Shown here in pieces: positions 1,396 to 60,434 of a stretch of 64,000 nucleotides of DNA; position 1 is the first letter of the stretch; the number at the start of each line of letters is the position of its first letter. Where the stretch lies: positions 1-64,000 of the forward strand of contig NZ_JACSIT010000080.1 in the NCBI RefSeq assembly GCF_014349155.1, in the 5' to 3' direction. A program made the translations under genes and the position numbers. Origin of the DNA: Neolewinella lacunae. GTDB lineage: Bacteria > Bacteroidota > Bacteroidia > Chitinophagales > Saprospiraceae. Below the pieces are notes generated by a model. It saw only the letters and a program-made list of their open reading frames with translations. It made no database searches and was not told the origin of the DNA.

Positions 1396-1439
1396 GCATC
1401 CCGAAATCCTCCGGGACCATCGCCTGCGGCCGCGCCCAA
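1396..1439. repeat. Dispersed CCTGCGGCCGCGCCC element, 44-bp inverted copy with 8791-8834
   Basis: These 44 bases are an exact reverse complement of 8791-8834. The right end, CCTGCGGCCGCGCCC (1423-1437), is the core of the dispersed repeat family described in the findings. The rest, ATCCCGAAATCCTCCGGGAC, occurs only in this pair. It lies just after the stop of the MBL hydrolase gene. Confidence 0.85.
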
Positions 1440-1448
1440 AAAACTGCA

Positions 1449-2240
1449 TCACCCCGCTAAAGCACCCCCCTGCCGCAAAACCATCCCATCCCAGCCCGCC
1501 CGCACGTTGGGCGGCAGTTCCCGGCTGAGCTCCGCGCTGCGGCCCATGCCGTGGCTGAAGTGGGTGAGGACGCCCTGGCCAACGTTGAGCTCGCGCAAAT
1601 AACGGAGTGCTTCGTCCAGTGAGAGGTGGGAGTGGGTGCCCGTTCGGTTCAGCGCCGAGAGGACCAGCGCAGACAAACCCGTGCAGCGCGCCAGGGTAGT
1701 GCTGGGCAGCGACTTAACGTCCGTCAGGTAGCCAATATCTCCCCAGCGGATCCCGAAGATGGGCAAAGGGCCGTGGCTGACCTCCAGCAATTCAATATCG
1801 TGCCGACCAAATGAAATCCTCTCGCCGAAATTGACCTCCCGAATGTCCAGCCGCGGCACTCCGGGATAACCCGAAAAGGCGTAGGCAAAGCGCTCGCGCA
1901 ATTCTTTGGCCACGCGCGGAAGGCAGTATACGGGCATCTCAATGCCCTGGGCAAAGCAGTAGGGCCGCAGGTCGTCAAGCCCGGCCGTATGGTCATTGTG
2001 TTCGTGGGTAATCAGTACGCCATCCAGAGTTTTCACCCGGGCGCGGAGCATCTGCTGGCGGAAATCTGGGCCAACGTCAATCGCAAAATTTTGGACGCCC
2101 GACCGCAGCAGGGCGCTGGCCCGCAGGCGATTGTCGCGGGGGGCGGTCGAGCGGCAAACCGGGCAAGAACAAGTCAGCACGGGCACGCCCTGCGACGTTG
2201 CCGTGCCCAATAAGACCAACTCTTCGCGTTCTAGGTCCAT
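1449..2240 (-). CDS. MBL-fold metal-dependent hydrolase (PhnP-like)
   Basis: A 263-residue metallo-beta-lactamase-fold hydrolase. The dinuclear metal signature THEHNDH lies near residues 78-84, and a Cys cluster (TCSCPVC) near residue 25 resembles PhnP/RNase Z-like phosphodiesterases that bind a structural zinc. By family the likely reaction is hydrolysis of a small (cyclic) phosphodiester, but the substrate is unknown. The ATG at 2240 overlaps the galE stop by one base (TGATG), so translation is probably coupled to galE; a GTG one codon earlier is an alternative start. Confidence 0.8.
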   Translation of the reverse strand: MDLEREELVLLGTATSQGVPVLTCSCPVCRSTAPRDNRLRASALLRSGVQNFAIDVGPDFRQQMLRARVKTLDGVLITHEHNDHTAGLDDLRPYCFAQGIEMPVYCLPRVAKELRERFAYAFSGYPGVPRLDIREVNFGERISFGRHDIELLEVSHGPLPIFGIRWGDIGYLTDVKSLPSTTLARCTGLSALVLSALNRTGTHSHLSLDEALRYLRELNVGQGVLTHFSHGMGRSAELSRELPPNVRAGWDGMVLRQGGALAG

Positions 2241-3262
2241 CACTTGCCTGACTCTCCCAGTTTTTGCTCCCAGGCCCAGGCGCTTTGCATGATTTCCTCT
2301 ACGCCCCGGCGGGGTTCCCAGCCCAGTTCCAGGGCGGCGCGGGTGCGGTCGGCGTACACCGCTACGACGTCACCCGGCCGGCGGGGCCCCAGTTGGTAGT
2401 TCAGTTTTACGCCGCTCACTTCCTCGAAGGCCCGGATGGCTTCCAGCACCGTGAGCCCTTCGCCAATGCCCAGGTTAAACAACTCGGGGTTTTTAGTGGC
2501 CTTGTCTTTCAGCAGGTATTTCAGGGCCAGGGTATGGGCGTGGGCCAGGTCCATCACGTGGATGTAATCCCGCACACAGCTGCCGTCCCGCGTCGGGTAG
2601 TCCGTTCCGAACACCGTCATGCTGGCCCGTTTTCCGGCGGCCACGGCGGTGATGACGGGGACGAGGTTGGAAGGGGAGTCCGAAGGGTCTTCGCCCAGCA
2701 GGGTGCTTTCGTGGGCTCCGGCGGGGTTGAAATAGCGGAGGATGACCGACTGAAAGTAGGGGTTGGCGCGGCAGAAATCGGTGATGATGTCTTCGCCCAT
2801 CTGCTTGGTGCGGGCATAGGGGCTTTCGGCTTCCTTGCGCGGCGTTTTTTCCGTCACGGGCAGGGCATCGGCGTTGCCGTAGACGGAGCAGGAGCTGGAA
2901 AAAACCAGGTTGCTGCTGCCTTGCCGCTGCAAACCTTCCAGCACATTCATCAGGCTGTTGAGGTTGTTGCGGTAGTATTCCAGCGGCTTTTGGACGCTTT
3001 CCCCCACCAGTTTATAGGCCGCGAAGTGGATGGCCCCCGTAAGTTGTTCGCTTTCAAAAAGCTTACGGGCGGCGGCGGCATCGGCCAGATCGAGCTCGTA
3101 GTTCTTCACTTTTACGCCGGTGATGGCCTCAATGCCCTCCAGTGCTCCGGGGCGGGAATTGTGGAAATTATCGACACTCACTACCTCGAATCCGTGCTGG
3201 ATCAAATCAACAATGGTGTGGCTGCCAATATAACCGGTGCCACCGGTAACCAGGATTTTCAT
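2240..3262 (-). CDS. galE: UDP-glucose 4-epimerase
   Basis: GalE interconverts UDP-glucose and UDP-galactose, supplying galactose for surface glycans. The 340-residue protein starts MKILVTGGTGYIGSHT, the Rossmann NAD-binding loop. It has the SSCSVYG serine region and the catalytic YxxxK pair in SPYARTKQ near residue 150, and matches family length. The frame is open further upstream, but the extension is not conserved-looking and the Rossmann start fixes the ATG at 3262. It is translationally coupled to the downstream MBL hydrolase. Confidence 0.95.
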   Translation of the reverse strand: MKILVTGGTGYIGSHTIVDLIQHGFEVVSVDNFHNSRPGALEGIEAITGVKVKNYELDLADAAAARKLFESEQLTGAIHFAAYKLVGESVQKPLEYYRNNLNSLMNVLEGLQRQGSSNLVFSSSCSVYGNADALPVTEKTPRKEAESPYARTKQMGEDIITDFCRANPYFQSVILRYFNPAGAHESTLLGEDPSDSPSNLVPVITAVAAGKRASMTVFGTDYPTRDGSCVRDYIHVMDLAHAHTLALKYLLKDKATKNPELFNLGIGEGLTVLEAIRAFEEVSGVKLNYQLGPRRPGDVVAVYADRTRAALELGWEPRRGVEEIMQSAWAWEQKLGESGK

Positions 3263-3332
3263 AAGTTGGGGTTGATGGGGTGAAAATGCGAAAAATGTGG
3301 GGAAGGTGTCCGGGAATTTGCCTTCGCCGGTC

Positions 3333-5114
3333 TCAATTGTGACGAATTTCGTCGGGCGGAATCGCAATGCCCATCCGCGCCATCAGGGTGGTGGCATTAA
3401 AGCTTTGGCTCACGCCCCGGTGCAGGCGGTAGTCAAAAATGAGTTCGTCGCCCTGGGTTTTGACCTCCATCGCGTAGTTTTCGACGTGGCTGCCGGGTTC
3501 TTTTTCGAGGTCGGCCAGTTCCAGATCGTGGGTAGCGATGATGCCCGCTCCTTTGTCGCGGATGAGCTGGCGGATGAGCGCCCGCGAGCCCGTGTGGCGG
3601 TCGCGGGAATTGGTGCCTTTCAGAATCTCATCCAGCAGGAAAAACACGGCATTATCCGGTGCGCTGACGGCTTCGATGATGACTTTAAGGCGCTTCAGTT
3701 CGGCGTAAAAGCTGGAGGTGGCCGCGCTCAGGTCGTCGTGGGTGCGCATGCTCGTCCACACTTGCAGGGGGCGCGTACGCAGGTGCAGGGCACAGACGGG
3801 GGAGCCGGCCTGGGCCAGGACGAGGTTGATCCCCACCGTGCGCAGCCACGTTGATTTGCCGGCCATGTTGGACCCCGTCACCAGCTGAATGTGCCCGTCG
3901 GTGCGCATCTCCACGTCGTTGGTCACCCGGCGGGCGGGGTGGAGGAGGGGATGGCCGAGGCCGGTTGCGTGGAGGATGGGCTCGGTGGTGAATGCGGGCT
4001 CGGTCCATTCCGGCTGGTTGAAGCGGAGGGTGGCCCAGCTGACGTAGGCGTCGGTCTCGGCCAGGGCCTCCAGCCAGCCGGGCAGGGCCGTCCGGTGAGC
4101 TTCCCGCCAGGCGTCGAGCTTACGCAACCACTGCAGGCTCCAGAGGCCGCTGATTTCCAGCAGCAACACGAAAGGATTGTAGCGTACGTCAAGTTGGCTG
4201 CTCAGGTAGCTCAGGCGGCGCAGGGCGGGGACGGCCGCGCGGAGGTCAGCACCCCCGGGGCCCGTGCTGGCGTGCTCCAGCAGGGCGGCGTAGCCCAGGA
4301 GCAATTTGCCCATGGCGGCCGTGTAGGCGTGTTCGCGGGGGATGATCTCGGCGTACTTGCGCAGTAGCAGGGCGGCGGGAACGAAGGCCAGCGCCGCCAC
4401 GAACCAGGGGACGAATAAAAGGCCGGTCACCACGCCCAGCACACTCAGCACCGGACTGAGCAGCAACAAGGTCCTTTCCCAGCGCCCCGTCACCACGGCC
4501 GGGCGTTGCAACCACGCTGCGAGCCGTTGGAAATGACCGATTTCATCATGGAGGCCGTGGCCCAGGGTGCGAAAGTCGAGGCACCATTCGGGCATTGCTC
4601 CGAGGGACTGGCCCTGCACCTGCGTCCGCGCCCGCTCCATCTCGCTGCTGGGCTGTAATAATTGCTTGGCCAGCAGTTCCCGGCCCGGTGCCGTGACCGT
4701 ACGGTTGAGGAACTGGAAGAGGCTGTGCGGACCAAAAATATCGAGGTCGAGCGCGTAGGGATGGGCGGGATCGAGCAGGTCTTGGCCGCCGTCGAAGTGC
4801 CCGAAGTCGTGGTCCAAGGCCCGCAATTCTCCCGCAGCGAGCTGGCTGCGTACCTCCGCCGCCGCTGCCCGCTGCCCGATCCTGCGGTGTTGCCGGACGC
4901 CCCAAACCAGGGGCGGAAGCGTGAGCCCCAGCGCCAGCAAACCCCACCAACCGCCCGCGCTGAAGGCCAGAATCAGGCCCACCACCCAGATCAGGAAAAC
5001 GAAGAGGCGCACCAGGGCCAGGCGTTCGTAGCGCCGGCGGAGTTCTGCCGCCTCCGCCGTTTGACTGGCCAGTAAAGCGGTGTAAAATGGCTTTGGTGCC
5101 GTCATGTGCTGCAT
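3333..5114 (-). CDS. Membrane-anchored MutS-family ATPase
   Basis: About 593 residues. The N-terminus carries hydrophobic segments (around residues 30-70, and another pair near 205-245), and the C-terminal third is a MutS ATPase domain with Walker A TGSNMAGKST and Walker B FFLLDEILKGTNS followed by the DRHTGS region. There is no N-terminal mismatch-recognition domain, so classical repair is unlikely. Such MutS-like membrane proteins are common in Bacteroidota and their role is unclear. Start MQHMTAPK at 5114 is chosen; ATG 5105 is close behind. A copy of the dispersed CACCTGCGTCCGCGCCC element sits inside it at 4617-4633, encoding ARTQVQ near residue 161. Confidence 0.85.
   Translation of the reverse strand: MQHMTAPKPFYTALLASQTAEAAELRRRYERLALVRLFVFLIWVVGLILAFSAGGWWGLLALGLTLPPLVWGVRQHRRIGQRAAAAEVRSQLAAGELRALDHDFGHFDGGQDLLDPAHPYALDLDIFGPHSLFQFLNRTVTAPGRELLAKQLLQPSSEMERARTQVQGQSLGAMPEWCLDFRTLGHGLHDEIGHFQRLAAWLQRPAVVTGRWERTLLLLSPVLSVLGVVTGLLFVPWFVAALAFVPAALLLRKYAEIIPREHAYTAAMGKLLLGYAALLEHASTGPGGADLRAAVPALRRLSYLSSQLDVRYNPFVLLLEISGLWSLQWLRKLDAWREAHRTALPGWLEALAETDAYVSWATLRFNQPEWTEPAFTTEPILHATGLGHPLLHPARRVTNDVEMRTDGHIQLVTGSNMAGKSTWLRTVGINLVLAQAGSPVCALHLRTRPLQVWTSMRTHDDLSAATSSFYAELKRLKVIIEAVSAPDNAVFFLLDEILKGTNSRDRHTGSRALIRQLIRDKGAGIIATHDLELADLEKEPGSHVENYAMEVKTQGDELIFDYRLHRGVSQSFNATTLMARMGIAIPPDEIRHN
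4617..4633. repeat. Dispersed element core inside the MutS-like gene
   Basis: CACCTGCGTCCGCGCCC on the plus strand, preceded at 4592 by GCATTGCTCCG, a module that also precedes the copies at 42908 and 54977. In the gene (minus strand) it reads ARTQVQ. Confidence 0.7.
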
Positions 5115-5182
5115 GGCAAAGGATAAAGGAAACCCAACCGCTCCCGAAAGCACAAAGCTATAAACTACGCAACTACCGAACC

Positions 5183-5233
5183 ATGAACTATGAACTATGA
5201 ACTATGAACTATGAACTATGAACTATGAACTAT
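5183..5233. repeat. Seven tandem copies of ATGAACT
   Basis: Seven exact heptamers run from 5183 to 5231, directly upstream of the protease gene. Each carries an ATG, and the last (5225) is in frame with that gene. A related array lies at 57388-57459, and similar GAACTAC units occur in the repeat at 43741-43935. Confidence 0.9.
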
Positions 5234-8790: not shown

Positions 8791-8834
8791 TTGGGCGCGG
8801 CCGCAGGCGATGGTCCCGGAGGATTTCGGGATGC
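8791..8834. repeat. 44-bp inverted partner of 1396-1439
   Basis: Exact reverse complement of 1396-1439, including the core GGGCGCGGCCGCAGG at 8793-8807. It lies in the gap between the GT39 gene and the GT2 gene. Confidence 0.85.
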
Positions 8835-8900: not shown

Positions 8901-8947
8901 TACTCCCCCTTTCGGGGGGTCGGGGGGGAGCACCTGCGACCGCGCCC
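8901..8947. repeat. Composite GC-hairpin plus CACCTGCGACCGCGCCC element
   Basis: TACTCCCCCTTTCGGGGG continues into a G-rich run and then CACCTGCGACCGCGCCC (8931-8947). The same composite occurs inverted at 21468-21512 and in the same orientation at 42880-42924 within a histidine kinase gene. It lies immediately before the GT2 stop codon. Confidence 0.8.
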
Positions 8948-15314: not shown

Positions 15315-18300
15315 TTACTCCACCACAATCCGCGCGCCCGCCGTATTGGCCCCGAATTCCGGCGCGTACATGCACTGGACGCGGCCCAGGCCGTTGCTGA
15401 AGCTGCCTTTGTGGGTCGCAAAAAGGTCGTACTCCAGCGTGTAGGTGCCGCGGGGGAGGTGGTCGATGAAGAAATTGGTGGCCAGGTCGCCGGGGGCAAA
15501 GTAATAGCCCAGGCCGTTGCGGTACTGGTAGCCGGAGATTTGGGTGATGGGCTCGAAAGTAGCGGCGCGGCGGTCTTTGAGGTGGACGTAATCCAGGTCG
15601 CGGTCGCTGCGCAGGATGAGCCGGACGGTCACGCGGTCGCCGGGGGCCAGGGGTGCGTCGGCGGTAATGGGTTCCAGGCGGACACCATCGGCGGTGGCGA
15701 TGCGGCGGAACAGCTCCCGGTCGAGCGTCAGGGGGCCGTCGTTGCTCCCCGCCACCTTCGTGGCCAGTTCCGTGTACTGCCAGTACACCCCGCCCCAAAC
15801 CAGGCGATTTTCCTGATTTTTTACGCGTACGGTGGCCAGGCCACTGTTCACTTCGCTGCCGGGCAGGGCCAGGGAGAAGGCTCCCGTAGCCGCTTCGGGC
15901 GTGTTTTGGAGGGCGCGGACGCGGGTGCTGAGTAAGTCGCGAGCGGCAAAGTCCGGCCACTCTACCCGGATGGCTTCTCCCTCCGATTCGGTCCAGTTGG
16001 TTCCCCCGTTGAGCAAGGCAAAGACGGCGGCGGCGCTGGCCTTGGTGGTTTCCCAGCGGTTGGTCCGTTTGTTGGTCAGGAGCCACAGGCGCATTTCGTC
16101 GAGTTCTTCGGTGGTGCCTCCGGCCAACTGGAAGGCCTCCAGCAGGCGGCAGTGGGTCTCGATGGGGAGTTGCTGCCAGGTGTAGCCCTGGCCGTATTTC
16201 CAGAACATCCCGAACTCGTCTTTGTGCAGGGCCCGTTCGCGCAGGGAAGCAACGATGGTGGTGGCGGTGGCGCGGTCTCCGGTCTTGGTGGCGGTGGCTA
16301 CCAGGAGGGCCTGTTCGTAGAGGCCATACTTCGTCCAGCTGCTCTTCGTACGGGTAGTGTAGAAGGCGAGGGCTTCCCGTGCCTGGTCGTCCTGGGGCGG
16401 TGCTGCGGCGTGCATTGCCCGGGCGTAGAGGTAGTGGACGACGGTGCTGGAGGGCTGGTAGTCTTTGCGCTGGTCCGGGGTTTTTTCCGTTTGGCGGAGG
16501 TATTCGACGTACTCTTTGCGCCAGGCCTCGTCGAGGAAGGCAATGGCACTTTTGCTGATACCCGATACGCGGGCTTTCTGGTCGGGCGAAACAACGTCGA
16601 GCTGCCGGAGCCGGCCGAGGGTTTCCACCACGTACTGGGTCATGTAGCGGTTTTCGCGTCCGCCGGGGAACCAGCTGAAGTAGCCGGAAGCATCCTGGCG
16701 CTGGGCCAGTTTTTCCAGGGCGGCGGTTTGCTCGTCGGCCAGTTTTTTGAGGTCGAAGAGGTCGCCGATGCGGGCGCGTTGGGCGGCTTCCGACTCAGCT
16801 TCGCGCAGCCAGGGCGTCTCGGTCAGCAGGGCGTTTTTGAGTTGGGGGTTGCGTTCCAGTTCACTCTTCAGGGCGTTGGAATCCCGTTGCCACTGGCGGA
16901 AGACTTGCTCCAGGATGGGTTTGCTGCTGACGGTGGTGTAGGCCAGCTGGTTGGCGAAGTAGCGGTTGGCGAGTTGCTCCGTGCAGTCGTAAGGGTACTC
17001 CATCAGGTAGGGCAGGGCCTTGAGGGCCAGCCAGGCCGGGTTGGTCGTGGCCTGGAAGGTATAGCCCACGTGTTGCAGGCTGTTGCTGCGGTTGCTGGCC
17101 AGCAGGGGCAGTTCGATGGTTTTCTTCTCCTTCCGTTTGAGGTAGAAGGGCTGGCTGACGGTGATCAGGGTGCGGTCCGATAAGACGGGGAAGACGTTCT
17201 CTTCGCCGTCGGAATAAGCACCACCCCGGGCGATGATGCGGTAGCCGACGGGGCCGACGGTGGAAAAGCCTTCGGGGATGCTGAGGTTAAAACAGAAGGT
17301 GCTTCCCGCTTGGGCGGACACGCTTTGCTCCGTTGGACAATCCCCTGCACCTGCGTTCAGCGCCCGCATGGTCTCCGCAGGGAACGCCTCGCCGGTGATG
17401 GGGTTGAACAGCTCCAGCTGCACGCGGGCCAGCAGCGCCGTATCCGTCAGGTTATTGACGCGGGCGGTGAGGGAAAGCGCGTCGCCTTCGCGGACGAAAC
17501 GGGGCACGTTGGGCAGGACCATGAGCTCCTTCTGCGTCACGATCGTTTGCTGGGAAATGACCGAGGCCAGATTTTTGTCGTGGGCCAGCAGGCGGAACGT
17601 CCAGCTCGTCAGGGCTTCCGGACTGTTGAAACTCACCGTCAGGCGACCGGAGTCGTCGCTGGTCAGTTCCGGTAACCAAAAGGCTGTTTCCTGGAGGTTG
17701 GTCCGAATTTGCACGGGGGCGTCCTCGCCTCCTCCGCCTTCTCCCGGCGCGGGCGGCGGCGGTGGCGGCGGCACGGAATCTTCCGCGCTGTAGTTGGCGG
17801 GGGCAGAGGCCGCCATCGGGCTGGGGCTGGCCTTGGCGACACTTCTCTGAACACGCATCTCCGCCATGTCTCCTCTTCCGCGCGGAGCTTCACTTGTTAA
17901 GAATAGCTGGTCTTCATAACGACCGTAGTTGAGAAAATCGAGCGGCCCGAAGTCAAACACGGGTGGCATCAGTGCGTCGGGGAAACTGGGCTCGGGGATA
18001 TTGTTGAAGCCGTAGCCGGAGTTGGTGCCCGCCTGCAGTTGCTCGGCAAAATCGCGGTAGCCGTAGTAGAAGGGGAAGGCGCTGAGGTTCCAGCGGCCGC
18101 CGGCGTAGATTTGGTCGAGGCTGGCGTCGTACATCGAAGCCAGGGCGGCAGCGGCGATGGGCGTGCTGTCGGCATTGCTGATCGTGAGGGTCCACCGCTC
18201 GGGTTGGCCGGGGCGCAGTTTGGCGCGGAAGGTGGCGTATTCTACCCGCAGCTTTTTGTTTTCCCAGTCGAGGGTGAAGCGTTCGCTGATGGTCGTCAGT

Positions 18301-21467: not shown

Positions 21468-21512
21468 GGGCGCGGCCGCAGGTGCTCCCCCCCGACCCCC
21501 CGAAGGGGGGAG
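21468..21512. repeat. Composite GGGCGCGGCCGCAGGTG element with GC hairpin
   Basis: Core at 21468-21484, followed by CTCCCCCCCGACCCCCCGAA and a G run. It is the inverted equivalent of 8901-8947 and 42880-42924. The surrounding gap 21339-21788 contains this, one hairpin repeat (21572-21616) and no gene. Confidence 0.85.
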
Positions 21513-25738: not shown

Positions 25739-25755
25739 GGGCGCGGCCGCAGGTG
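25739..25755. repeat. Dispersed element core GGGCGCGGCCGCAGGTG
   Basis: Exact core in the 331-bp gap between the divergent malic enzyme and TonB receptor genes. Apart from this and the promoter I see nothing in that gap. Confidence 0.8.
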
Positions 25756-25964
25756 CAGGCAAAAAACCAGAGGGCCAAACTGTGACAGGACTTGCAGGTT
25801 GGCCCACTGGTGTGCAACGCTTGTCAAGTAGCATCGTCCTTTCCTACAACGCTTCGTCCGATTACTGCGGGGATTGGACGAAGAAGGTACGCCACCTGGC
25901 CCGGCCGCCATTTTTTTTGCCTTCGCCGGGCAACTGATTTTCCCGCCAGCCGACACTCCAACCA

Positions 25965-28385
25965 ATGAAAAGACTTTACGCACACTTCCTCCTTTGCTCC
26001 TTCATCCTCCTCTTTGGCACCTGCGTCCGCGCCCAAAACAATGGCCCCGCCAGCAAAACACCGGCCCCAACTGGCAGTGTCAGTGGGCGCGTGATGGGTG
26101 ACGGGGAGGCCGCCGCTTTCACCAATGTGCTGCTGCTCAAAGCCGCCGACAGCAGCGTCGTGAAACTGGAACTGGCCGACGAAACTGGCCACTTCACCTT
26201 CGCCGGGATCGTGGCCGCCGACTACTTCGTACGCACCAGCGGCATTGGGATCGGCGAACAAAACCACCCCGGTTTCAGCCTCGCGGCGGGCCAGGACCTT
26301 ACCCTGCCCGACTACCTCTTGCAATCCAGCGGCACGACCCTGGACGCCGTCGAAGTGGTGGCCCGCAAACCCTTCCTGGAGCAAAAAGCGGGCATGCTGG
26401 TGGTCAACGTAGACCAAAGCATCACCGGCCAGGGTGGAACGCTGATCGACCTGCTCCGCAAAGTACCCGGCGTAGTCGTGGTCGGCGACCGCGTCTCCAT
26501 GGCCGGTAAATCGGGACTGACCTTCCTCATCGACGGCCGCCCGACCAAGTACATGGACCTCCAGAGCCTGCTGCGCGATATGCCCGCCGACAACATCAAA
26601 AGCATCGAGGTGATCAGCCAGCCCGGTGCGGCTTTCGACGCCGAAGGCAGCGGCGGGGTGATCAACATCGTCCTGAAAAAGAACAGCCTGCTGGGCACGA
26701 ACGGACAGGTCTACATCGGCGGCGGCTACGGCGAACTGGCCAAGTACCGCAGCGGCGTCGACCTGAGCCACCGCCAGGGGAAGGTCAATTTGACGGGCGG
26801 CGCCAGCTACAACCACCGCAGCTGGGTGGAGGGGCTCGACCTCGTGCGCCGCTTTTCCGACCGCACCTTCCTCCAATCCAATACCTCCACCGGCACGCCA
26901 ACGAGCTACTCGGTGCGGGGTGGCATGGACTACGACTTCAACGACCGCAACCGCGCAGGCATCAACGCCCGCTACGGCTGGGGCAGCAGCCCGCGCAACG
27001 GAGACAACCGCACCGAGGTAGTGACCCCGGAAACCCACCAGCTGATGGAATCTTTCGTCACCAACCCCCGCGAAGAAAAAGAATGGTACAGCCTCAATAC
27101 CGACGCTTTTTACCGCATCAAGCTCGATACCAGCGGGCAGGAACTCAACTTCGACGCCAGCTACAACCGCTTTGAGCGGGATACCCGCATCGAACTGAAA
27201 ACGGTGGGCGCAGACTTTCCCGACCGCATCAACCTGGAGCCTTCCATGGCCAACATCATCAGCGGGCAAGTGGACTACAAAAAGCCCTTTGGCGAGCACT
27301 ATGCTTTCTCCGCGGGCGTCAAGATGAGCCGCGCGGAACTCGACAACGAGTTGCTGGCCCGCGTCGCCGAAAACGGCGGTTTTGTGGTGGACGCCAACCT
27401 CAGCAACCGCTTCCTCTACGACGAAGACATCAAGGCGGCCTACACCAGCCTGCGCTGGGAGAAGGGCGAACTGGGGGCCAACATCGGCCTGCGCTACGAA
27501 GACACCCGCATGGAGGGCTACAACGTGACGGTCGATAGCTTCAACCGCCGCAACTTCGCCCAGCTTTTTCCCAGCCTGAGTTTCAGCGCGCCAGCTTTCG
27601 GGCCCGTGGGGGTATCCCTGGCCTACAGCTACCGCATCGAACGGCCAAGCTATTACGACCTCAACCCCTTCATCTCCTACCTGGACCCACTGACCTTCGA
27701 AAAGGGCAACCCTTTCCTGCGGCCCGAGCTGATCCACAGCGCCCAGTTTAGCCTCACCTACGAGAAGCAACCCTTCTTCAACCTCAGCTACGATTTTACC
27801 AGCGACGTTATTGCCGACGTCACGGAGCAAGACGCGGTCACCGGCATCGCCTTCCAGAATACGGTCAACCTCGACCGTTTCGTGCGCTACGGGGGCAGCC
27901 TGTTCTTTCCCCTCGATTTCATTGCCAAGCCCATCAGCGGCTACGGTGGTTTCCAGTTGTACTACAATGATTATACCTCCAACTTCCTGGGCGGCAACCT
28001 CGACCAGGACCAGTGGAGCCTCACCGCCTTCTTCCAGGTGAACGCCAAGCTGCCCATGGGCTGGAAGGGCGAAGTTTCGGGCTGGTACCAGGGCAAAGGC
28101 ATTGATGGCATCATCCGCACTAATCCGCTTTACGGCGTATCCGCTGGCCTCGAAAAAGACTTCCTCGATGATCGCCTCAACCTGGTGCTTTCCGGCGACG
28201 GCATCATCCAGAAGTTCTTTACCGGCACCATCCGCTACCAGGAGCAAAACCTCGACGTGCTTTCCACCTGGGAAGCCCCCGTTTTCAGCGCCAAACTGAC
28301 CTACAAGTTCGGCAACCGCTTCCTGAAACGCAACGAAGGCCGCAACAGCTCTGCCAGCGAAGAGCGGGGGCGGATTACGGAGTAG
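25965..28385 (+). CDS. TonB-dependent receptor, outer-membrane beta-barrel family
   Basis: 806 residues. Signal peptide MKRLYAHFLLCSFILLFGTC plus VRAQ, a carboxypeptidase-regulatory-like domain (about residues 35-125), a plug domain (LIDLLRKVPGVVVVGDRVSM; FLIDGRPTKYM; VEVISQPGAAFDAEGSGGVI) and a long beta-barrel ending NRFLKR then a short tail. This subgroup of outer-membrane receptors (OMP_b-brl_3 type) is widespread in Bacteroidota; ligand unknown. The signal-peptide end is encoded by a copy of the dispersed element (26018-26034). No SusD partner is adjacent. Confidence 0.88.
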   Translation: MKRLYAHFLLCSFILLFGTCVRAQNNGPASKTPAPTGSVSGRVMGDGEAAAFTNVLLLKAADSSVVKLELADETGHFTFAGIVAADYFVRTSGIGIGEQNHPGFSLAAGQDLTLPDYLLQSSGTTLDAVEVVARKPFLEQKAGMLVVNVDQSITGQGGTLIDLLRKVPGVVVVGDRVSMAGKSGLTFLIDGRPTKYMDLQSLLRDMPADNIKSIEVISQPGAAFDAEGSGGVINIVLKKNSLLGTNGQVYIGGGYGELAKYRSGVDLSHRQGKVNLTGGASYNHRSWVEGLDLVRRFSDRTFLQSNTSTGTPTSYSVRGGMDYDFNDRNRAGINARYGWGSSPRNGDNRTEVVTPETHQLMESFVTNPREEKEWYSLNTDAFYRIKLDTSGQELNFDASYNRFERDTRIELKTVGADFPDRINLEPSMANIISGQVDYKKPFGEHYAFSAGVKMSRAELDNELLARVAENGGFVVDANLSNRFLYDEDIKAAYTSLRWEKGELGANIGLRYEDTRMEGYNVTVDSFNRRNFAQLFPSLSFSAPAFGPVGVSLAYSYRIERPSYYDLNPFISYLDPLTFEKGNPFLRPELIHSAQFSLTYEKQPFFNLSYDFTSDVIADVTEQDAVTGIAFQNTVNLDRFVRYGGSLFFPLDFIAKPISGYGGFQLYYNDYTSNFLGGNLDQDQWSLTAFFQVNAKLPMGWKGEVSGWYQGKGIDGIIRTNPLYGVSAGLEKDFLDDRLNLVLSGDGIIQKFFTGTIRYQEQNLDVLSTWEAPVFSAKLTYKFGNRFLKRNEGRNSSASEERGRITE
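26018..26034. repeat. Dispersed element core inside the receptor signal peptide
   Basis: CACCTGCGTCCGCGCCC, exact, read in the frame TCVRAQ at the signal-peptide cleavage region. Confidence 0.65.
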
Positions 28386-35536: not shown

Positions 35537-35546
35537 GACGGCCCCG

Positions 35547-35563
35547 CACCTGCGGCCGCGCCC
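35547..35563. repeat. Dispersed element core CACCTGCGGCCGCGCCC
   Basis: Exact core, ten bases after the preceding stop codon and followed by TTTTTT. Confidence 0.8.
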
Positions 35564-38336: not shown

Positions 38337-40304
38337 TCAAGCCCCCAGTGCCTCGCTGGCCTGCTCCCAGGCCTCCATGGCGGCGTCTAACTCGTCCTGT
38401 TTGGCCTTCAGTTCGTTGGTTGTTTTGCTGACGAGCGACGCGTTGTTGTAGAAATCGGGGTCGGCCATCACCTGGTGAATTTTTTCGATCTCTTTTTCCA
38501 GGCGCTCGATTTTGCGCTCTGCGTTGCCGATGTCTTTTTCCAGCCGCCGGCGCTCTTCCGGGGATAGGGCGGGCAGTTTGGGCGCGGCCGCAGGTGCCGG
38601 GGCCGTTGTCCCCCCCAACCCCCCAGCGGGGGGAGCAGCGGGGGCGGTCGGCAGGTCGGCTTTGGATTTCTCCAGTTCCACCGCCCGCATATTGTCGATC
38701 TTCCGCTTTTCCAGGAAGAAGTTGACGTCTCCCAGGTGCTCGTGCAACTGGTGATCGCGGAACTCAATCGTCCGGTCCGTCAGCCCCGCCAGGAATTCCC
38801 GGTCGTGGCTCACCACCACCAGCGTGCCGTCGTAGTCGAGCACCGCCTGCTTGAGGCGGTCCTTGCTGATCATGTCCAGGTGGTTGGTCGGTTCGTCCAG
38901 CACCAGCAGGTTGAAGGGACGCAACAGCATGCAGGCCAGGGCCAGGCGGGCCCGCTCTCCGCCGGAGAGGACGGACACTTTCTTCTCCGCATCTTCCCCC
39001 GTGAAAAGGAAAGCCCCGAGGATGGCCCGCAGGCGGGTACGCATTTCGGGCGGACTGGCCTCTTCCATCGTCTCCAACAGGGTCTTTTTGCCGTCCAGGG
39101 CGTCGCTCTGGTTCTGGGCGTAGTAACCTACGGAGACGTTGTGGCCCATTTCTACTTCCCCCGAGGTCGCCGGGATGTTGTTGATCAGGATTTTGGCCAG
39201 CGTCGTCTTGCCCTGCCCGTTTTGGCCCACGAAGGCCACGCGGTCGCCGCGGTCAATCTTCAGGTCCACTCCCCGCAGCACGTTCAGTTTGCCGTAAGTC
39301 TTGGTGATGTTGCGGGCTTGCAGGGCGATGGCCCCCGAGCGGGGGGCTTTGGCAAAGCGCAGGTTCATCACGGCGGTATCCGTCTGGTCCAGCTCAATGC
39401 GCTCGATTTTGTCGAGCTGCTTTTGCATCGATTGGGCCATCTTCGTTTTGGTGGCCTTGGCCATGAAGCGATTGATGGTCCGCTCTTTGTCGGCAATGAC
39501 TTTTTGCTGGTTCTCGAAGGCCGCCTCGGCTTTTTCGCGGCGGTCGGCCTGGAGCTCCACGTATTTGCTGTAGCCGGCTTTGTAGTCGTACACTTTGCCC
39601 AGCTCGATTTCCAGGGTGCGGTTGGTGACGTTATCCAGGAACTGCTTATCGTGGCTGATGGTCACCACGGCCCCGGAGTAGGTGCTCAACCAGTTTTCGA
39701 GCCAGATGATGGACTCAATGTCGAGGTGGTTCGTAGGTTCGTCCAGCAACAGGTAATCGGGGCGCTGGAGGAGCATTTTGGCCAGTTCAATGCGCATCTG
39801 CCAGCCGCCGGAGAACTCCGTGGTTTGGCGACCAAAGTCTGCCTGCTGGAAGCCCAGGCCTTTGAGAACCCGCTCCGCTTCGGCCTCCATCGTGATGCCG
39901 CCCACCATGGCGAAGCGCTCGGTCAGCGAGGTGAACTCCTCCAGAAAGGCCGCGTATTCGTCGGTTTCGTAATCCGTGCGCGTCTCCATCTCTTTGGTCA
40001 TGGCCGCCAGGCGCTCTTCCATGGCCTGGATGTGAGCAAAGGCCGTCAGTGTTTCCTGCATTACGGAGCGGCCGCTGGGCAGATCCATCTCCTGGTGCAA
40101 AAAGCCGAGGGTACTGCCAGTGGGCCGGGTGACGGTGCCCTGGTCGCTGCCACGGTCGCCGGCAATGATTTTGAGCATCGTCGACTTTCCCGCTCCGTTG
40201 CGGCCCACGAGCCCGACCTTATCCCGCGGCATAATGACGAAGGAGACGTGGTTAAACAAGACGCGGTCGCCGTATTGTTGGTAAATTCCAGTGACGGAGA
40301 GCAT
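38337..40304 (-). CDS. ABC-F family ATPase
   Basis: 655 residues with two ABC domains and no membrane part. Walker A sites are GRNGAGKST and GQNGQGKTT, signatures FSGGWQMRIELA and LSGGERARLALA, Walker B regions LLLDEPTNHLD and LVLDEPTNHLD. The interdomain linker (about residues 235-310) is charged and helical, and the C-terminal 70 residues form a coiled coil. ABC-F proteins act on ribosomes in translation or antibiotic protection. Between the second ABC domain and the coiled coil a low-complexity Pro/Ala/Gly linker contains a dispersed element copy (38580-38596, read APAAAP). Confidence 0.92.
   Translation of the reverse strand: MLSVTGIYQQYGDRVLFNHVSFVIMPRDKVGLVGRNGAGKSTMLKIIAGDRGSDQGTVTRPTGSTLGFLHQEMDLPSGRSVMQETLTAFAHIQAMEERLAAMTKEMETRTDYETDEYAAFLEEFTSLTERFAMVGGITMEAEAERVLKGLGFQQADFGRQTTEFSGGWQMRIELAKMLLQRPDYLLLDEPTNHLDIESIIWLENWLSTYSGAVVTISHDKQFLDNVTNRTLEIELGKVYDYKAGYSKYVELQADRREKAEAAFENQQKVIADKERTINRFMAKATKTKMAQSMQKQLDKIERIELDQTDTAVMNLRFAKAPRSGAIALQARNITKTYGKLNVLRGVDLKIDRGDRVAFVGQNGQGKTTLAKILINNIPATSGEVEMGHNVSVGYYAQNQSDALDGKKTLLETMEEASPPEMRTRLRAILGAFLFTGEDAEKKVSVLSGGERARLALACMLLRPFNLLVLDEPTNHLDMISKDRLKQAVLDYDGTLVVVSHDREFLAGLTDRTIEFRDHQLHEHLGDVNFFLEKRKIDNMRAVELEKSKADLPTAPAAPPAGGLGGTTAPAPAAAPKLPALSPEERRRLEKDIGNAERKIERLEKEIEKIHQVMADPDFYNNASLVSKTTNELKAKQDELDAAMEAWEQASEALGA
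38580..38596. repeat. Dispersed element core inside the ABC-F gene
   Basis: GGGCGCGGCCGCAGGTG, followed by a GC-rich hairpin-like arm (CCCCCCCAACCCCCC then a G run). It encodes part of a Pro/Ala linker in the ABC-F protein. Confidence 0.8.
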
Positions 40305-40367: not shown

Positions 40368-40400
40368 CGTTGCATCCGCCTATCTGAGAGTACGCCCTGA

Positions 40401-40434: not shown

Positions 40435-40469
40435 TTATTAAGGTTCAACCCCTCCGGGATCAGAACTGC

Positions 40470-42470: not shown

Positions 42471-43708
42471 GGCGTACCGGTTGGTGCCAGGGGGCGGGTG
42501 AGGGCTTTGGCAGACCCTTCCTCCCTTTCCACTGCGGCAGCACCGGGCAGAATGGGCAGGTAAACGGTGTAGTCGGTGGCCGTCTGCTCAATGACCATCT
42601 CGCGGCCCGTCAGCGCGGCGTAGCGGGCCCGCAGGTTGTGGTGCCCCCAGCCGGTGGAACTCAATGTCCGGTCGCGCAGCTGTAAGGGGTTGCTGACGAT
42701 GACCTGCTCGTCGTCCAGCGTAATCGTGATCCGCAGCGGGCAGGCGGAACTGACCACGTTGTGCTTGATGGCATTTTCCACCAGGAGTTGAACCGATAGC
42801 GGGACAATCCGGTAGTGGTGCAGGTGCGGCGGAACCTGCGGCTGTTCGCGGGGGATCGTGCATTGCTCCTCCGTCCTTTCTCCCCCCTTCGGGGGGCCGG
42901 GGGGGAGCACCTGCGGCCGCGCCCCCATACTGGCCACCGCCCGGTCGGAAAGCCGCCACTCGATCACCAGTTTGTCCTCAAAACGCGTCTGCATCAGGAA
43001 AATGTAGTCCTGCAAAGCCAGCAATTCTTCTTCCAGCCCAATGAGTTCCTTGTGGCGGTATTCCAGGATGCGGCGGTAAACGGCGGCCAGGCGCTGCGTA
43101 AATAGCGTCGCCGTTGCCGGGTCTTCGGGGATCACATTGACCAGGGTATTGAGGCTGTTGAACAGGAAGTGGGGGTTCATCTGGTGCTTCAATACCGCCA
43201 GCTGCGTCCGCATATTCTCCTTGGCCAACTGCTCCCGCTCCAACACGCTCTGCTTGTACTTCGTGAAAAAATAGCCGCCCTCGTAGGCCGCCACCACCAT
43301 GATGACCAGCGTATAGGTCATCACAAACTTGAAAAAAACGGAGGGTTGGGGCAGGCCCTGGTCCGCCATAAAAACGCGCACCAAAGGCTGGGTCACCGAT
43401 GAAACCAGCAGCACGGATAAGGCCAGCAGAAAGAAGGTAAGGCCCAAACGAACCGCCGTTTGCTGTTCCCCGGGAAAACTTTCCCGCAACTGCATCACCA
43501 CCTGCCGACTGATCAGCCAGTGTACCAGCGTAAACAGAAAGGCTATGCCGTAGCAGGTAGCACTCTCGGTCACGTCCATCCCCGGGTTGGCCCCACCGAA
43601 AAGGACATTGGCCAGCCAGGCCAGTGGCAGCATACCCAGGATCATCACCGGCAGGTCATTGAACCCGAGAAGACGAATGCGGTCGGCCTTGGAACGGAAA
43701 ATCTGCAT
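42467..43708 (-). CDS. LytS-type sensor histidine kinase with inserted repeat-coded segment
   Basis: 413 residues. Four membrane helices occupy about residues 15-150; the kinase core has VLKHQMNPHFLFNSLNTLVN (His), LVENAIKHN (N box) and TGWGHHNLRARY (G box). Between the dimerisation helices and the ATPase domain, residues about 262-285 read GARPQVLPPGPPKGGERTEE, which is the direct translation of a composite dispersed element (42857-42924) and looks foreign to the family. The insertion keeps the frame and lies before the conserved VPLSVQLLVENAI, so activity may survive. Confidence 0.9.
   Translation of the reverse strand: MQIFRSKADRIRLLGFNDLPVMILGMLPLAWLANVLFGGANPGMDVTESATCYGIAFLFTLVHWLISRQVVMQLRESFPGEQQTAVRLGLTFFLLALSVLLVSSVTQPLVRVFMADQGLPQPSVFFKFVMTYTLVIMVVAAYEGGYFFTKYKQSVLEREQLAKENMRTQLAVLKHQMNPHFLFNSLNTLVNVIPEDPATATLFTQRLAAVYRRILEYRHKELIGLEEELLALQDYIFLMQTRFEDKLVIEWRLSDRAVASMGARPQVLPPGPPKGGERTEEQCTIPREQPQVPPHLHHYRIVPLSVQLLVENAIKHNVVSSACPLRITITLDDEQVIVSNPLQLRDRTLSSTGWGHHNLRARYAALTGREMVIEQTATDYTVYLPILPGAAAVEREEGSAKALTRPLAPTGTP
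42857..42924. repeat. Full composite dispersed element inside the kinase gene
   Basis: Modules in order on the plus strand: GCATTGCTCCTCCGTCC, then TCTCCCCCCTTCGGGGGG with a G-rich run, then CACCTGCGGCCGCGCCC (42908-42924). It is the most complete copy in the window. Confidence 0.85.
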
Positions 43709-43740
43709 GATGAAGCGGTTTGCGCAAGCCCCAAAGTAAT

Positions 43741-46425: not shown

Positions 46426-46442
46426 GGGCGCGGCCGCAGGTG
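46426..46442. repeat. Dispersed element core GGGCGCGGCCGCAGGTG
   Basis: Exact core just upstream of the receptor gene; followed by CAAGGTGCG. Confidence 0.8.
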
Positions 46443-46608
46443 CAAGGTGCGTCAGGCTGAAGCGTCGTTATTCCCGGATGAGTTGTCACGCAGCGCCCCG
46501 CCATCTCCCCGCCGCCCCGCACAAAGCCCGAAGTGCGGAGAAAACCACGGCGCACAACCATCTGCGGGAGTAGGAGTTTTCCTGCGTAGAACTACCATTA
46601 CACTTTTC

Positions 46609-47367
46609 ATGCAAAGAAGAAATTTCCTCGCCGCCAGTGCTGCCGCCCTTCCTTTCGCCCTGGGGGCTTCCCCGCTGGCGCCCAACACCGCTGCGGCCGA
46701 TCGCCAGCTATTGGAACTGCGGACCTACGAAATAAAATTCGGGGGCAGCGGACAAGCCCTCCTCCTCGACTACCTGAAAAACGCGCTGGCCCCCGCCCTG
46801 CAACGCCTGGGCTGCGCCGACTTCCGCACCATGAAAGAGCTGGGGAACGAAGAACCCGCCAAACTCTGGGGGCTGATTTCCTACCCCAACGCAGATACCT
46901 ACCTGCGCGCCCAGGATTTGAGCCAGGATGCCACCTACCAGGCCGCCGCCAGCGGCTACACCGCCGTACCCGCCGAAAAGCCCATCTTCAGCCGCTACAG
47001 CTCCCAACTCCTGCACGCTTTCACGGGCATGCCCCAGGTGCAGGACCCGGGCGATGCCGGCCTCTTTGAACTGCGCACCTACGAAGGCTACAGCGAAGAC
47101 GCCGTCCGCCGCAAAATCAAAATGTTCAACGACGAAGAATTCCCCCTTTTCTATAAAGTAGGCCTTCTGCCCGTTTTCTTCGGCGAGATGATCAGCGGCC
47201 CCTACCGCCCCAGCCTGGTCTATATGCTACACTTCAAGGACATGGAGGAACGCAATGCCAACTGGCAGGTTTTCATTGCCCACCCGGAGTGGAAAGCCAT
47301 GTCGGCCAAAGCCGAATACGCCAACTCCGTATCCAATATCCGCAAAACCTTCTTGCTGCCCGCTTAG
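46609..47367 (+). CDS. NIPSNAP family protein with Tat-like signal
   Basis: 252 residues. The N-terminus MQRRNFLAASAAALPFALG carries a twin-arginine (RRNFL) signal, so export by Tat is likely. Two ferredoxin-like NIPSNAP repeats follow (LLELRTYEIK near residue 36 and LFELRTYEGY near residue 152, the latter ending SLVYMLHFKDMEERNANW). Function is not established; NIPSNAP proteins in Bacteroidota are often periplasmic. The ATG at 46609 is right before the Tat motif, so the long upstream frame is not used. Confidence 0.85.
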   Translation: MQRRNFLAASAAALPFALGASPLAPNTAAADRQLLELRTYEIKFGGSGQALLLDYLKNALAPALQRLGCADFRTMKELGNEEPAKLWGLISYPNADTYLRAQDLSQDATYQAAASGYTAVPAEKPIFSRYSSQLLHAFTGMPQVQDPGDAGLFELRTYEGYSEDAVRRKIKMFNDEEFPLFYKVGLLPVFFGEMISGPYRPSLVYMLHFKDMEERNANWQVFIAHPEWKAMSAKAEYANSVSNIRKTFLLPA

Positions 47368-47606
47368 CCCGGTTCCGGACGTCCCGTCCGGTAGATGCAG
47401 CCCATGGAGTTTTGCTTCGCAGTATTTCATGCTCCTGGAGTTAAACATGGAGTTGCCTGGAGTTTGCCCGGTTCCGGACGTCCCGTCCGGTAGATGCAGC
47501 CCATGGAGTTTTGCTTCGCAGTATTTCATGCTCCTGGAGTTTGCCCGGTTCCGGACGTCCCGTCCGGCTTATACCTATGTGCCAACCGGACGGGACGTCC
47601 GGAACC
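47367..47606. repeat. Direct repeat array with CCGGACGTCCCGTCCGG palindromes
   Basis: Units begin GCCCGGTTCCGGACGTCCCG at 47367, 47466 and 47543. The first two are 99 bp apart and almost identical (including CCCATGGAGTTTTGCTTCGC); the third is truncated and is followed by an inverted palindrome copy at 47585. CATGGAGTTGC sub-blocks also occur near 10850-10887. The 240-bp gap holds no gene. Confidence 0.9.
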
Positions 47607-53965: not shown

Positions 53966-54286
53966 ATGGCACAGTACATCCAGGACGTCCACGACGTCGC
54001 CCGCATGATCCCTCCGGGGCGGGTGACGACCTACGGAGCCATTGCCGACTTCCTTACCCTGGGCAGCGCCCGGATGGTGGGTTGGGCGATGCGGCAGTGC
54101 CTGGCGGAGGATGAGGTGCCCGCGCACCGGGTGGTCAACCGCAAGGGGGAGCTGAGTGGCCGCAACAACTTCGCCACGCCCACCCTGATGCAGGAGCGGC
54201 TCGAAGCCGAGGGCGTGCGGGTGGTAAATGACCAGGTGGTAGATTTTGCCCGGCACTTCTGGGCACCGACTGAGCTGCAATTATGA
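53966..54286 (+). CDS. Alkyltransferase-like protein (ATL), Ada/MGMT family without active Cys
   Basis: 106 residues of the MGMT DNA-binding domain. MIPPGRVTTYGAIADFL is the helix-turn region; the usual PCHRV reads VPAHRVVN, with Ala53 in place of the alkyl-acceptor Cys. Such ATLs bind O6-alkylguanine and hand the lesion to nucleotide excision repair. It overlaps tsaB by four bases (ATGA) and lies 14 bp after the hydroxylase gene, starting a tight chain. Confidence 0.88.
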   Translation: MAQYIQDVHDVARMIPPGRVTTYGAIADFLTLGSARMVGWAMRQCLAEDEVPAHRVVNRKGELSGRNNFATPTLMQERLEAEGVRVVNDQVVDFARHFWAPTELQL

Positions 54287-55086
54287 TGCGTCTTTTACTG
54301 GAAACGGCTACCGATGTCTGTTCCGTGGCCGTCGCCCGGGGGGAGACCCTGCTGGCGGAGTACACCGCTCCGGAGGCCCACCGCCATTCCAGCCACCTCA
54401 CCGTCTACATCCGGCAGGTGCTGGCGGCGGCGGGAGTGGCCTTGCGCGAGGTGGAGGAACTTGTGTTGAGCGACGGACCCGGCAGCTACACGAGCCTGCG
54501 GGTGGGGGCGGCCACGGCCAAGGGTTTGTGCGTGGCCCTGCCCGGGCTGCGGCTGCGGGTGGTGCCCACGCTGGCGGCGCTGGCCCTGGCGGCTCCGGCG
54601 GCGGAAGCGCCCACGCTGGCCGTCATCAATTCGCGGCGTGGCGAAGTATTCGGCCAGCTCTTTTTGGGGGCGCGGTCCCGAGATCCGCTATCGCTCGTCG
54701 GGACCACACAAGAGGCTGGGCATCTTGCGCGGCCGCAGGTGCCGGCAACGGTGGGCAAGCAGGGGATGCCCCCCGGCTGGCATCCGTATTTCCGGGAGCC
54801 CCACAACCTCCGCCTGCTCGAACCCGACTGGCTGGAGCAAATTGTGCTGGCAGCCAGTACGGCCCACTTCCGGGTGTGCGGGCCAGGGGGCGAGCGCCTG
54901 CTGGAACACCTTCCACCCGGGGCACATAGGCCGGAGTTGAGCGGGCCCCGGCATTGCTCCGCCGTCCACCTCCTCGCACCTGCGTCCGCGCCCACTACCT
55001 CCCGCCTGGTCGACGTAGCCACCTACGAGCCCTTCTACCTCAACCCGCCCTTCGTCACGACGTCGGCCAAAAAGACCCTGGGGTGA
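54283..55086 (+). CDS. tsaB: tRNA threonylcarbamoyladenosine protein TsaB, with element-coded inserts
   Basis: 267 residues, longer than usual (about 220-240). The N-terminal ASKHA domain is intact: LLETATDVCSVAVARG, SDGPGSYTSLRVGAATAKGL. TsaB pairs with TsaD for t6A37 tRNA modification. Two dispersed-element copies lie in it: residues about 149 (LARPQVP) and about 232 (LAPASAP). The region between residues 130 and 175 looks inserted and may explain the extra length. ATG 54283 overlaps the ATL gene; the stop overlaps the truA GTG. Confidence 0.88.
   Translation: MMRLLLETATDVCSVAVARGETLLAEYTAPEAHRHSSHLTVYIRQVLAAAGVALREVEELVLSDGPGSYTSLRVGAATAKGLCVALPGLRLRVVPTLAALALAAPAAEAPTLAVINSRRGEVFGQLFLGARSRDPLSLVGTTQEAGHLARPQVPATVGKQGMPPGWHPYFREPHNLRLLEPDWLEQIVLAASTAHFRVCGPGGERLLEHLPPGAHRPELSGPRHCSAVHLLAPASAPTTSRLVDVATYEPFYLNPPFVTTSAKKTLG
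54727..54741. repeat. Dispersed element core in tsaB, copy 1
   Basis: GCGCGGCCGCAGGTG, read LARPQVP in TsaB. Confidence 0.75.
54953..54993. repeat. Dispersed element composite in tsaB, copy 2
   Basis: GCATTGCTCCGCCGTCC followed by CACCTGCGTCCGCGCCC (54977-54993), opposite in orientation to copy 1 and read in another frame (LAPASAP). Confidence 0.75.
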
Positions 55087-57387: not shown

Positions 57388-57459
57388 GTTCATAGTTCAG
57401 TAGTCGTTAGTTCACTAGGCAAGAGCACTATTGAACTATGAACTATGAACTATGAACTA
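57388..57459. repeat. GAACTAT heptamers in inverted arrangement between convergent genes
   Basis: Left side reads AGTTCATAGTTCAG, right side TTGAACTATGAACTATGAAC, so they can fold on each other across the crcB/wzy gap. The heptamer also makes the array at 5183-5233. It may serve as a two-way transcription barrier. Confidence 0.75.
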
Positions 57460-60112: not shown

Positions 60113-60120
60113 CAAAGGTA
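60113..60120 (-). promoter_or_regulatory. TACCTTTG -7 box for the Wzz-like gene
   Basis: Fits TAnnTTTG, 26 bases before the ATG. Confidence 0.5.
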
Positions 60121-60257
60121 CGGGGAGGGGAGGACATTCGTTGGCCCACCAGCCTCCCAGGCGCGCTCGGGGGAGACCAAGCTCCGGCCAGCGATGGTAG
60201 ACAGGCCTAATGCTTATTCCGTGGCTTTAGGGCGGTAGATGGGACGAGGGAAGGAGG

Positions 60258-60300
60258 CCTGTTAAAAATTTAACACAGCGAAATTTCGCAAAAAATTTTT
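60258..60300. repeat. AT-rich palindromes in the gap before the subtilisin gene
   Basis: GTTAAAAATTTAAC-like inverted repeat, then the perfect palindrome GCGAAATTTCGC at 60278-60289, then AAAAAATTTTT. The 383-bp gap 60087-60469 is otherwise gene-free; a protein-binding or terminator role is possible. Confidence 0.5.
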
Positions 60301-60417
60301 CAGTGTGTATTTTTAGCGGCATAAACCGATCTCTTTATCCTTAATCACGCACTTTTATTCTGATTCTGGGGGTGGTACTGGCCTGGCTGGACTTTGCTCT
60401 TTTGTCCATTGCCCTAG

Positions 60418-60434
60418 CACCTGCGGCCGCGCCC
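60418..60434. repeat. Dispersed element core CACCTGCGGCCGCGCCC
   Basis: Exact core 36 bases before the subtilisin start codon; preceded by GTCCATTGCCCTAG, loosely like the GCATTGCTCC module. Confidence 0.8.

Follow-up and report, generated by a model that had tools for sequence, protein, structure and literature searches.

The window analyzed here, 64,000 nt of Neolewinella lacunae, carries a short motif dispersed between and inside its genes, among them genes resembling those for MutS, an ABC-F ATPase, a histidine kinase and TsaD (Table 1). Allowing up to two mismatches, the core of the motif, CACCTGCGKCCGCGCCC, has 16 matches in the window: 10 exact, five with one mismatch and one with two. 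In 100 dinucleotide shuffles of the window, the mean was 0.18 and the maximum 2. In the assembly to which the window belongs, G000 (5.8 Mb, 154 contigs), the exact core occurs 761 times, 372 times in the forward and 389 times in the reverse orientation, and the reversed pattern used as a control does not occur. Such strong over-representation of a short non-palindromic motif on both strands is expected of DNA uptake sequences (DUS) and uptake signal sequences (USS). These data confirm that the dispersed repeat is real and bear out the original prediction, made from the window, that it recurs beyond chance. All 14 sites listed in that prediction were recovered, with positions 1423 and 54727 corrected to 1421 and 54725, as was a variant at 17348, which carries one extra base. 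Two copies missing from that list, at 3769 and 15911, both lie within genes.

The repeat unit is a bipartite 18-mer, GCACCTGCG-NNN-GCGCCC. Its anatomy was examined in 461 kb of G000, comprising the window and 20 other pieces, by allowing up to three mismatches to GCACCTGCGGCCGCGCCC. This yielded 127 copies, with 56, 34, 21 and 16 at 0, 1, 2 and 3 mismatches, respectively; the reversed control gave 0, 0, 0 and 4, and counts beyond three mismatches were those of the background. In the 111 copies that differ at no more than two positions, the three middle bases take 51 of the 76 changes and eight of the 18 positions are invariant. The copies show no decay tail: decay would spread variation everywhere, and a recent burst would preserve the arms along with the core. 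The palindrome GCGGCCGC, which had been noted as a possible protein-binding or methylation site, is present in the G000 form of the motif, but its three central bases are the most variable part.

A longer composite, in which a 5′ module and a GC hairpin precede the core, had also been described and stood in part. Of 75 copies scored in the 461 kb with any base allowed at position 9, 22 have a G-rich hairpin arm, taken as GGGGG no more than 15 nt upstream. The exact 5′ module, GCATTGCTCCNCCGTCC, is limited to two occurrences in the assembly, and the window contains both. The general form of this module is a loose TTGCTCC(TT), ∼24 nt upstream of the core where there is no hairpin and ∼43 nt upstream where there is one. 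The GC hairpin is optional, the 'GCATTGCTCC' module is loose, and the hairpin composite is secondary to the core. A weak 5′ pyrimidine preference was detected in the flanks of G001 and G008. No conserved word was found in the flanks beyond the 3′ end of the core; a conserved 3′ module, ATACTGCACCGCAAAAT, suspected from early flanks, failed on flank analysis. Scans of the window returned no Rfam match at gathering thresholds and no tRNA.

According to simple in-house open reading frame calls, ∼19% of the 461 kb is noncoding. Nevertheless, 87 of the 127 copies are intergenic; 18 lie antisense in genes, 13 are in the sense orientation and nine are sense and N-terminal. Eight of these nine share a frame whose usual reading is CTCVRAQ, the end of a signal peptide. 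Both strands and several reading frames are represented among the copies, most of which are intergenic; this supports conservation of the motif at the DNA level, in agreement with the original prediction; its claim that coding copies are read in different frames also held. Among fetched cores of the G000 type, signal-peptide ends, (C/S/G)TCVRAQ, make up 4/8 in G003 and 4/7 in G014, and 0/8 in G009 and 0/7 in G020 (fetched places: 8 of 14 in G003, 8 of 26 in G009 and 7 of 10 in G020). We interpret signal peptides as positions where the motif is tolerated rather than as its source.

The spacing of copies was compared with simulations that kept the coding/intergenic split, using nine contigs from five genomes and merging copies within 500 bp. 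The coefficient of variation was under the simulated mean in all nine contigs, and the copies were more evenly spaced than expected by chance (combined p ∼2e-5 either without merging or with merging at 500 bp, and 1.4e-4 with merging at 1 kb). Under a stricter null that draws whole intergenic regions, eight of nine contigs were below the mean, five of nine had p <0.05, and the combined p was 2e-5. Control repeats were too few for this test, and the single one yielding a value gave p 0.42. In samples of ten genomes, 38 pairs of copies lie within 400 bp of each other: 30 are outward (41–392 bp), eight are inward and none has the same orientation.

Table 1. Copies of the dispersed motif, and an associated hairpin, in the 64,000-nt window.
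Position	Strand	Feature
1420..1437	+	Core, TCGCCTGCGGCCGCGCCC subtype, after a different hairpin, CATCCCGAAATCCTCCGGGACCA
3769..3786	-	Near copy GTACGCGCCC in MutS-like gene 3333-5114(-); coding coincidence possible
4616..4633	+	Core, T form, antisense within MutS-like gene 3333-5114(-)
8793..8810	-	Core, TCGCCTGCGG subtype; left half of outward inverted pair with 8930
8930..8947	+	Core, A at position 9, GC hairpin before; right half of pair with 8793
15911..15928	-	Near copy ACCCGCGTCC within long gene 15315-21338(-)
17347..17365	+	Variant carrying one extra base, GCACCTGCGTTCAGCGCCC
21468..21485	-	Core, intergenic, GC hairpin before
25739..25756	-	Core, intergenic; outward pair with 26017
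26017..26034	+	Core, T form; codes ...GTCVRAQ, signal-peptide end of outer-membrane-receptor-like gene 25965-28385(+)
35546..35563	+	Core 9 nt past stop codon of 34199-35536(+)
38580..38597	-	Core in linker of ABC-F-like ATPase gene 38337-40304(-), reads APAAAP; motif versions in some relatives
42880..42907	+	CTCCCCCCTTCGGGGGGCCGGGGGGGAG, a GC hairpin; it and the core lie in a ∼60-75 bp stretch recurring in the genome at 91-97% identity
42907..42924	+	Core antisense in histidine-kinase-like gene 42467-43708(-); same linker holds motif versions in some relatives
46426..46443	-	Core 33 nt ahead of called start of 43981-46392(-)
54725..54742	-	Near copy, ends GCGCAA, antisense in TsaD-like gene 54283-55086(+)
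54976..54993	+	Core, T form, sense in TsaD-like gene 54283-55086(+), reads APASAP
60417..60434	+	Core 35 nt ahead of subtilase-like gene 60470-61993(+)

Exact copies were found in 19 of 21 Neolewinella/Lewinella genomes, in numbers ranging from 2+7 to 761; two genomes had none. Genomes carrying the motif include those of the cultured strains N. persica DSM 23188 and N. agarilytica DSM 24740. In the rest of the family, 0 of 147 genomes had the motif (150 were sampled, the other three being genus members, all of which match). In other genera, the spellings described below were absent from the seven genomes scanned (10 fetched, eight analyzed at 13–40 kb each). Weakly repeated 11-mers were seen in three genomes of other genera, G025, G048 and G080. 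Per 100 kb, the loose motif occurs ∼19–27 times in G000, G001, G002, G007, G008, G009 and G019, 10–11 times in G011 and G013, 4–6 times in G003 and G005, and once in G010 and G012.

De novo word counts and mismatch scans revealed that the motif is spelled in species-specific dialects. G019 and G007 use GCACCTGCGGCCCCGCCC (...GGCCCCGCCC), G009 uses ...GGCAGCGCCC, with GGCAG in 6/8 copies, and G012 uses TACCTGCGCTCCGCCGC; in G001, TCCG was found in 10/40 copies and TCAG in 6/40. Whole-genome counts of exact KCCG/KCCC copies identified KCCG-rich genomes (G000, 761/3; G016, 380/32; G017, 332/19; G001, 223/4) and KCCC-rich genomes (G019, 38/264; G007, 34/103; G003, 11/73). G010, which has the longest branch, contains a dispersed motif, CATTGCTACTTTGAAGTC, with 13 copies at up to three mismatches in 100 kb, eight of them intergenic and one in place within a coding gene; it is perhaps another dialect, perhaps an unrelated system. 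Dialect labels were placed on 13 of the 20 genomes in a one-gene ABC-F tree; they were given before the whole-genome counts, with G008 and G004 as GCCG. The labels required four changes versus a shuffled mean of 6.6, a value as low being reached in 1 of 200 shuffles, and the CCC users G003, G019 and G007 correspond to a single change (branch 99/98). On this tree and for the genomes labelled, the species dialects are consistent with phylogeny, as expected of DUS and USS.

Fixed sites hold different dialects in different species: four spellings, each in its own species, in the ABC-F linker (window 38580) and two in the kinase linker (window 42908). At the ABC-F linker, 19 relatives were compared, two of them without a match to the search pattern. 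The exact core is present in G000 and G017 and is two bases off in G015 and G004; G009 and G019 carry their own dialects exactly (GGCAGCGCCC and GGCCCCGCCC, respectively), and G012 carries its own with two mismatches. The sequence GCACCCGCGCCCCG, found there in G005, G006 and G020, is a plausible precursor of the motif. Hairpin-like sequence occurs at this linker in G000 alone and is missing in the relatives. Because several species code APAAAPK at this position, chance synonymous drift could explain part of the spellings. At the kinase linker, G000 and G012 have their own dialects exactly, G001, G004, G008, G015, G016 and G018 have variants, and G013 and G019 have none.

The origin of coding copies was addressed by alignment. 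An aligned relative was available for 32 of the 120 coding copies, and 40 of the 102 pairs listed, at most eight per copy, span the motif site gap-free, a number that includes some loci from the copy's own genome and some three-mismatch copies possibly due to chance. Clear gap-free cases against a motif-less relative are an OmpA-like gene of G000 versus L141 and G010 99013 versus G012 and G008; G012 31494 aligned gap-free with a G019 sequence two bases different. A G000 transporter gene and its G020 ortholog have the exact core in common. Some coding copies thus align gap-free to relatives without the motif, and these copies arose in place. Among orthologs of 25965-28385, some have a signal peptide of the core-encoded kind in varied spellings and others an ordinary one. 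At the 5′ end of the N. aurantiaca ortholog (L063/L141), the core lies inside an N-terminal extension of ∼31 residues, which precedes an ordinary-looking signal peptide.

The two parallels originally proposed for the repeat, Rickettsia palindromic elements and HIP1, share with it a dispersed distribution that extends inside genes. Rickettsia palindromic elements insert within genes, and the parallel fits less well because several coding copies have no inserted length. HIP1 is a single palindromic octamer common to many cyanobacteria, without dialects of such kind; the Neolewinella motif, unlike it, is a non-palindromic 18-mer, restricted to the genus and spelled in species dialects.

By analogy, and with moderate confidence, we propose that the motif works like an uptake sequence of the DUS/USS type, without claiming proven membership of that class. 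DUS and USS provide a better fit than a mobile element, Rickettsia palindromic elements or HIP1. Recognition in trans with drive is favored because the dialect changes at fixed sites, coding copies arose in place, there is no decay tail and spacing is even in some contigs. Uptake, a receptor and drive are the parts of the model that we infer. A bipartite 18-bp motif, preceded by weak pyrimidines, would be spread and kept uniform through such recognition. Neolewinella cells of one species would preferentially import DNA bearing their own dialect, and recombination of the imported DNA would replace the homologous locus. Near-motif loci would be favored where they are tolerated: between genes, in linkers and in signal peptides. 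A change of receptor would cause copies to shift in place to a new dialect, and some G000 copies would additionally have been copied as a hairpin-core unit. More tentatively, the motif could mean that self-DNA uptake sequences arose independently a third time, in Bacteroidota, here with several dialects within one genus and with a receptor that does not belong to the type IV pilus family.

USS systems belong to gamma-proteobacteria and involve a type IV pilus, and USS have a flanking preference on one side, as does the Neolewinella motif. Excerpts of the DUS/USS literature describe uniformity, dialects, even spacing and noncoding excess for the known systems, and state that many DUS were gained through recombination, not point mutation. 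According to excerpts of Frye et al. 2013 (PMC3630211), Neisseriaceae DUS resemble the Neolewinella motif in their many copies, permissive or intergenic placement, inverted pairs, tree-following species dialects and conserved sub-core, and in that some genomes have two dialects. The same excerpts describe DUS as 10–12 bp long, with close inverted pairs that act as terminators, ComP and a type IV pilus, and proven uptake; the Neolewinella motif, by contrast, is 18 bp long, has pairs 41–392 bp apart and no convincing pilus ATPase, and its uptake is putative. Pasteurellaceae USS, as excerpted from PMC1939737, share even spacing, noncoding excess, the lack of an orientation bias and a number of singly mismatched copies that is lower than expected, but have a 9-bp core.

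Several observations weigh against an uptake function. The inner-membrane channel ComEC, present in 21/21 genus genomes, and the DNA-processing protein DprA, present in 20/21 (the miss being a 55% complete genome), fit an uptake system, but both are also present in most control genomes (10/14 and 11/14, respectively) and discriminate little. The known systems use a pilus motor that seems to be missing here, as matches to PF00437 (PilB/PilT/GspE ATPases) are only short and partial, at up to 25.5 bits in 20/21 genomes and barely above the cut-off in 11/21; secretin and pilin families were not searched. The partial matches are presumably UvrA-like and other ATPases. A type IV pilus is a feature of both known uptake groups, although perhaps not of the principle. 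Among the literature matches listed, there were no uptake or transformation data for the genus. At 18 bp, the motif exceeds the known DUS (10–12 bp) and the USS core (9 bp). The dialects are not always distinct: KCCG and KCCC are mixed in G008 (284/199), G004 (224/67), G011 (29/29) and G005 (22/16), and the G010 motif has almost nothing in common with the other dialects. The loose motif was not found in 40-kb samples of G014 and G020, whose exact counts are low and which have kept ComEC and DprA. At the ABC-F linker, the motif is absent in most of the 19 relatives, including G007, G003, G008 and G016. Under the stricter null, four of the nine contigs alone gave p >0.1 in the spacing test, and G019 and G012 alone show no spacing signal. 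Finally, hairpin-core stretches of ∼60–75 bp in G000 are 91–97% identical and look copied, and outward pairing is not predicted by single uptake tags. The inverted pairs, together with the hairpin-core units, hint at an additional layer that resembles a mobile element.

The outward pairs are the best argument for a two-armed element. In a short mobile element, similar to a miniature inverted-repeat transposable element or a repetitive extragenic palindrome (REP), the core would be the outer end of a two-armed palindrome served by a transposase in trans, and lone copies would be half-elements. We consider this explanation unlikely. Many such elements would contain a GC hairpin and, as the inner arm, TTGCTCC; this inner module lies within 60 nt upstream of 39/108 intergenic G000 copies versus downstream of 1/108. 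The lack of conserved sequence past the 3′ end of the core, the near-identical stretches and the position of the core, which in 63/91 intergenic G000 copies has its 3′ rather than its 5′ end nearer to a gene, also fit a mobile element. However, coding copies show no change in length, orthologous sites have their own spellings, the core alone is conserved while the arms are degenerate, and neither the missing decay tail nor the even spacing is accounted for. No target duplication of at least four bases was seen by eye beside 13 outward G000 pairs.

REP repeats and bacterial interspersed mosaic elements, which are associated with REP-associated tyrosine transposases (RAYT), are dispersed, species-specific and in excess between genes, some with hairpins. 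The Neolewinella motif resembles them in each of these respects but differs in that some coding copies arose in place, the core is itself no hairpin, and there is no RAYT association. Genus genomes contain 0 to 7 Y1 transposases. None was found in G016, which has 380 motif copies, and the G000 Y1 genes are 2.4 and 3.5 kb from the closest motif, results that led us to reject a RAYT link and that argue against the mobile element; other transposase families were not searched. The loose motif was present in 13/30 fetched Y1 loci, with 15 copies in 95 kb, approximately the general density.

Also doubtful, and ranked next, is a binding site of an abundant protein, either chromosome-organizing or regulatory, that evolves together with the sites it binds. 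The bipartite logo with invariant halves, the dialects and the even spacing are consistent with it, and the outward pairs are compatible with a dimer bridging two sites; the earlier suggestion of a protein-binding site thus pointed in the right direction. Nevertheless, selection at more than 700 sites, some in genes or antisense, would be hard to sustain without drive, and strand counts are near equal (in contigs not oriented to replication). We know of no precedent for protein-binding sites with 18-bp dialects in such number.

Coding convergence, in which the core would reflect codon usage at the signal-peptide end CTCVRAQ and in AP-rich linkers, is highly improbable: the signal-peptide copies of G003 and G014, the 8/127 G000 copies in the CTCVRAQ frame and the largely synonymous differences among spellings of the ABC-F APAAAPK agree with it, but most copies are intergenic or antisense, G009 and G020 yielded no signal-peptide copies, and G012 and G010 have other sequences, which together rule out signal peptides as a general origin. 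A codon-bias artefact, the outcome held to be fatal to the original prediction, likewise fails against the reversed control of zero.

Other repeats were also observed. An intergenic family, GGATGC(R)CCGCATCCGTAATCCGGGG, which is partly a 30-bp tandem array, occurs at window positions 28482-28616, 1263-1310 and 40388-40461. Palindromic repeats, CGGTTCCGGACGTCCCGTCCGG, lie at 47364-47571 and 31403-31428, one array bearing TTTTGCTTCGCAGTATTTCATG. Tandem runs of TATGAACTA lie at 5172-5232 and 57427-57459; this word ranks with the most frequently repeated ones in the genome sample. Positions 35569-35751 and 43737-43935 contain two similar stretches, of 82 bp (87% alike) and 119 bp (78%), which start directly past the 35547 core. 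An array with an 8-bp period (TTTATCCC-like) lies at 40475-40570, upstream of the ABC-F-like gene. Additional over-represented words are GTTGCAGGTTGCAGG in G001 and GCTACACTAAGG and GGAACCATTAAGG in G008. Elsewhere, an exact core at L046 12271 (contig C19 72270) lies in a stretch where zinc-binding cysteines are usual, in a gene that presumably encodes a protein resembling tRNA-guanine transglycosylase; the site may reflect a frameshift, a degraded copy or misassembly.

Excerpts of PMC3630211 called the requirement for an uptake sequence unique to Neisseria and Pasteurellaceae in 2013. Excerpts of PMC7965970 report a preference of Riemerella columbina for its own DNA, and a table gives only A/T-rich k-mers for Riemerella and Flavobacterium. 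None of the literature matches listed described such a motif in Lewinella/Neolewinella or a proven uptake sequence in Bacteroidetes. Should the motif turn out to be bound by a protein or to be a mobile element, the switching of dialects at fixed sites would still have to be explained. If it is an uptake sequence, it would be without precedent in this bacterial branch and would provide an independent lineage in which to test why such tags evolve, whether by selfish drive or for self-recognition. It would also help to identify the outer-membrane DNA receptor of Bacteroidota and offer a practical tag for transforming Neolewinella.

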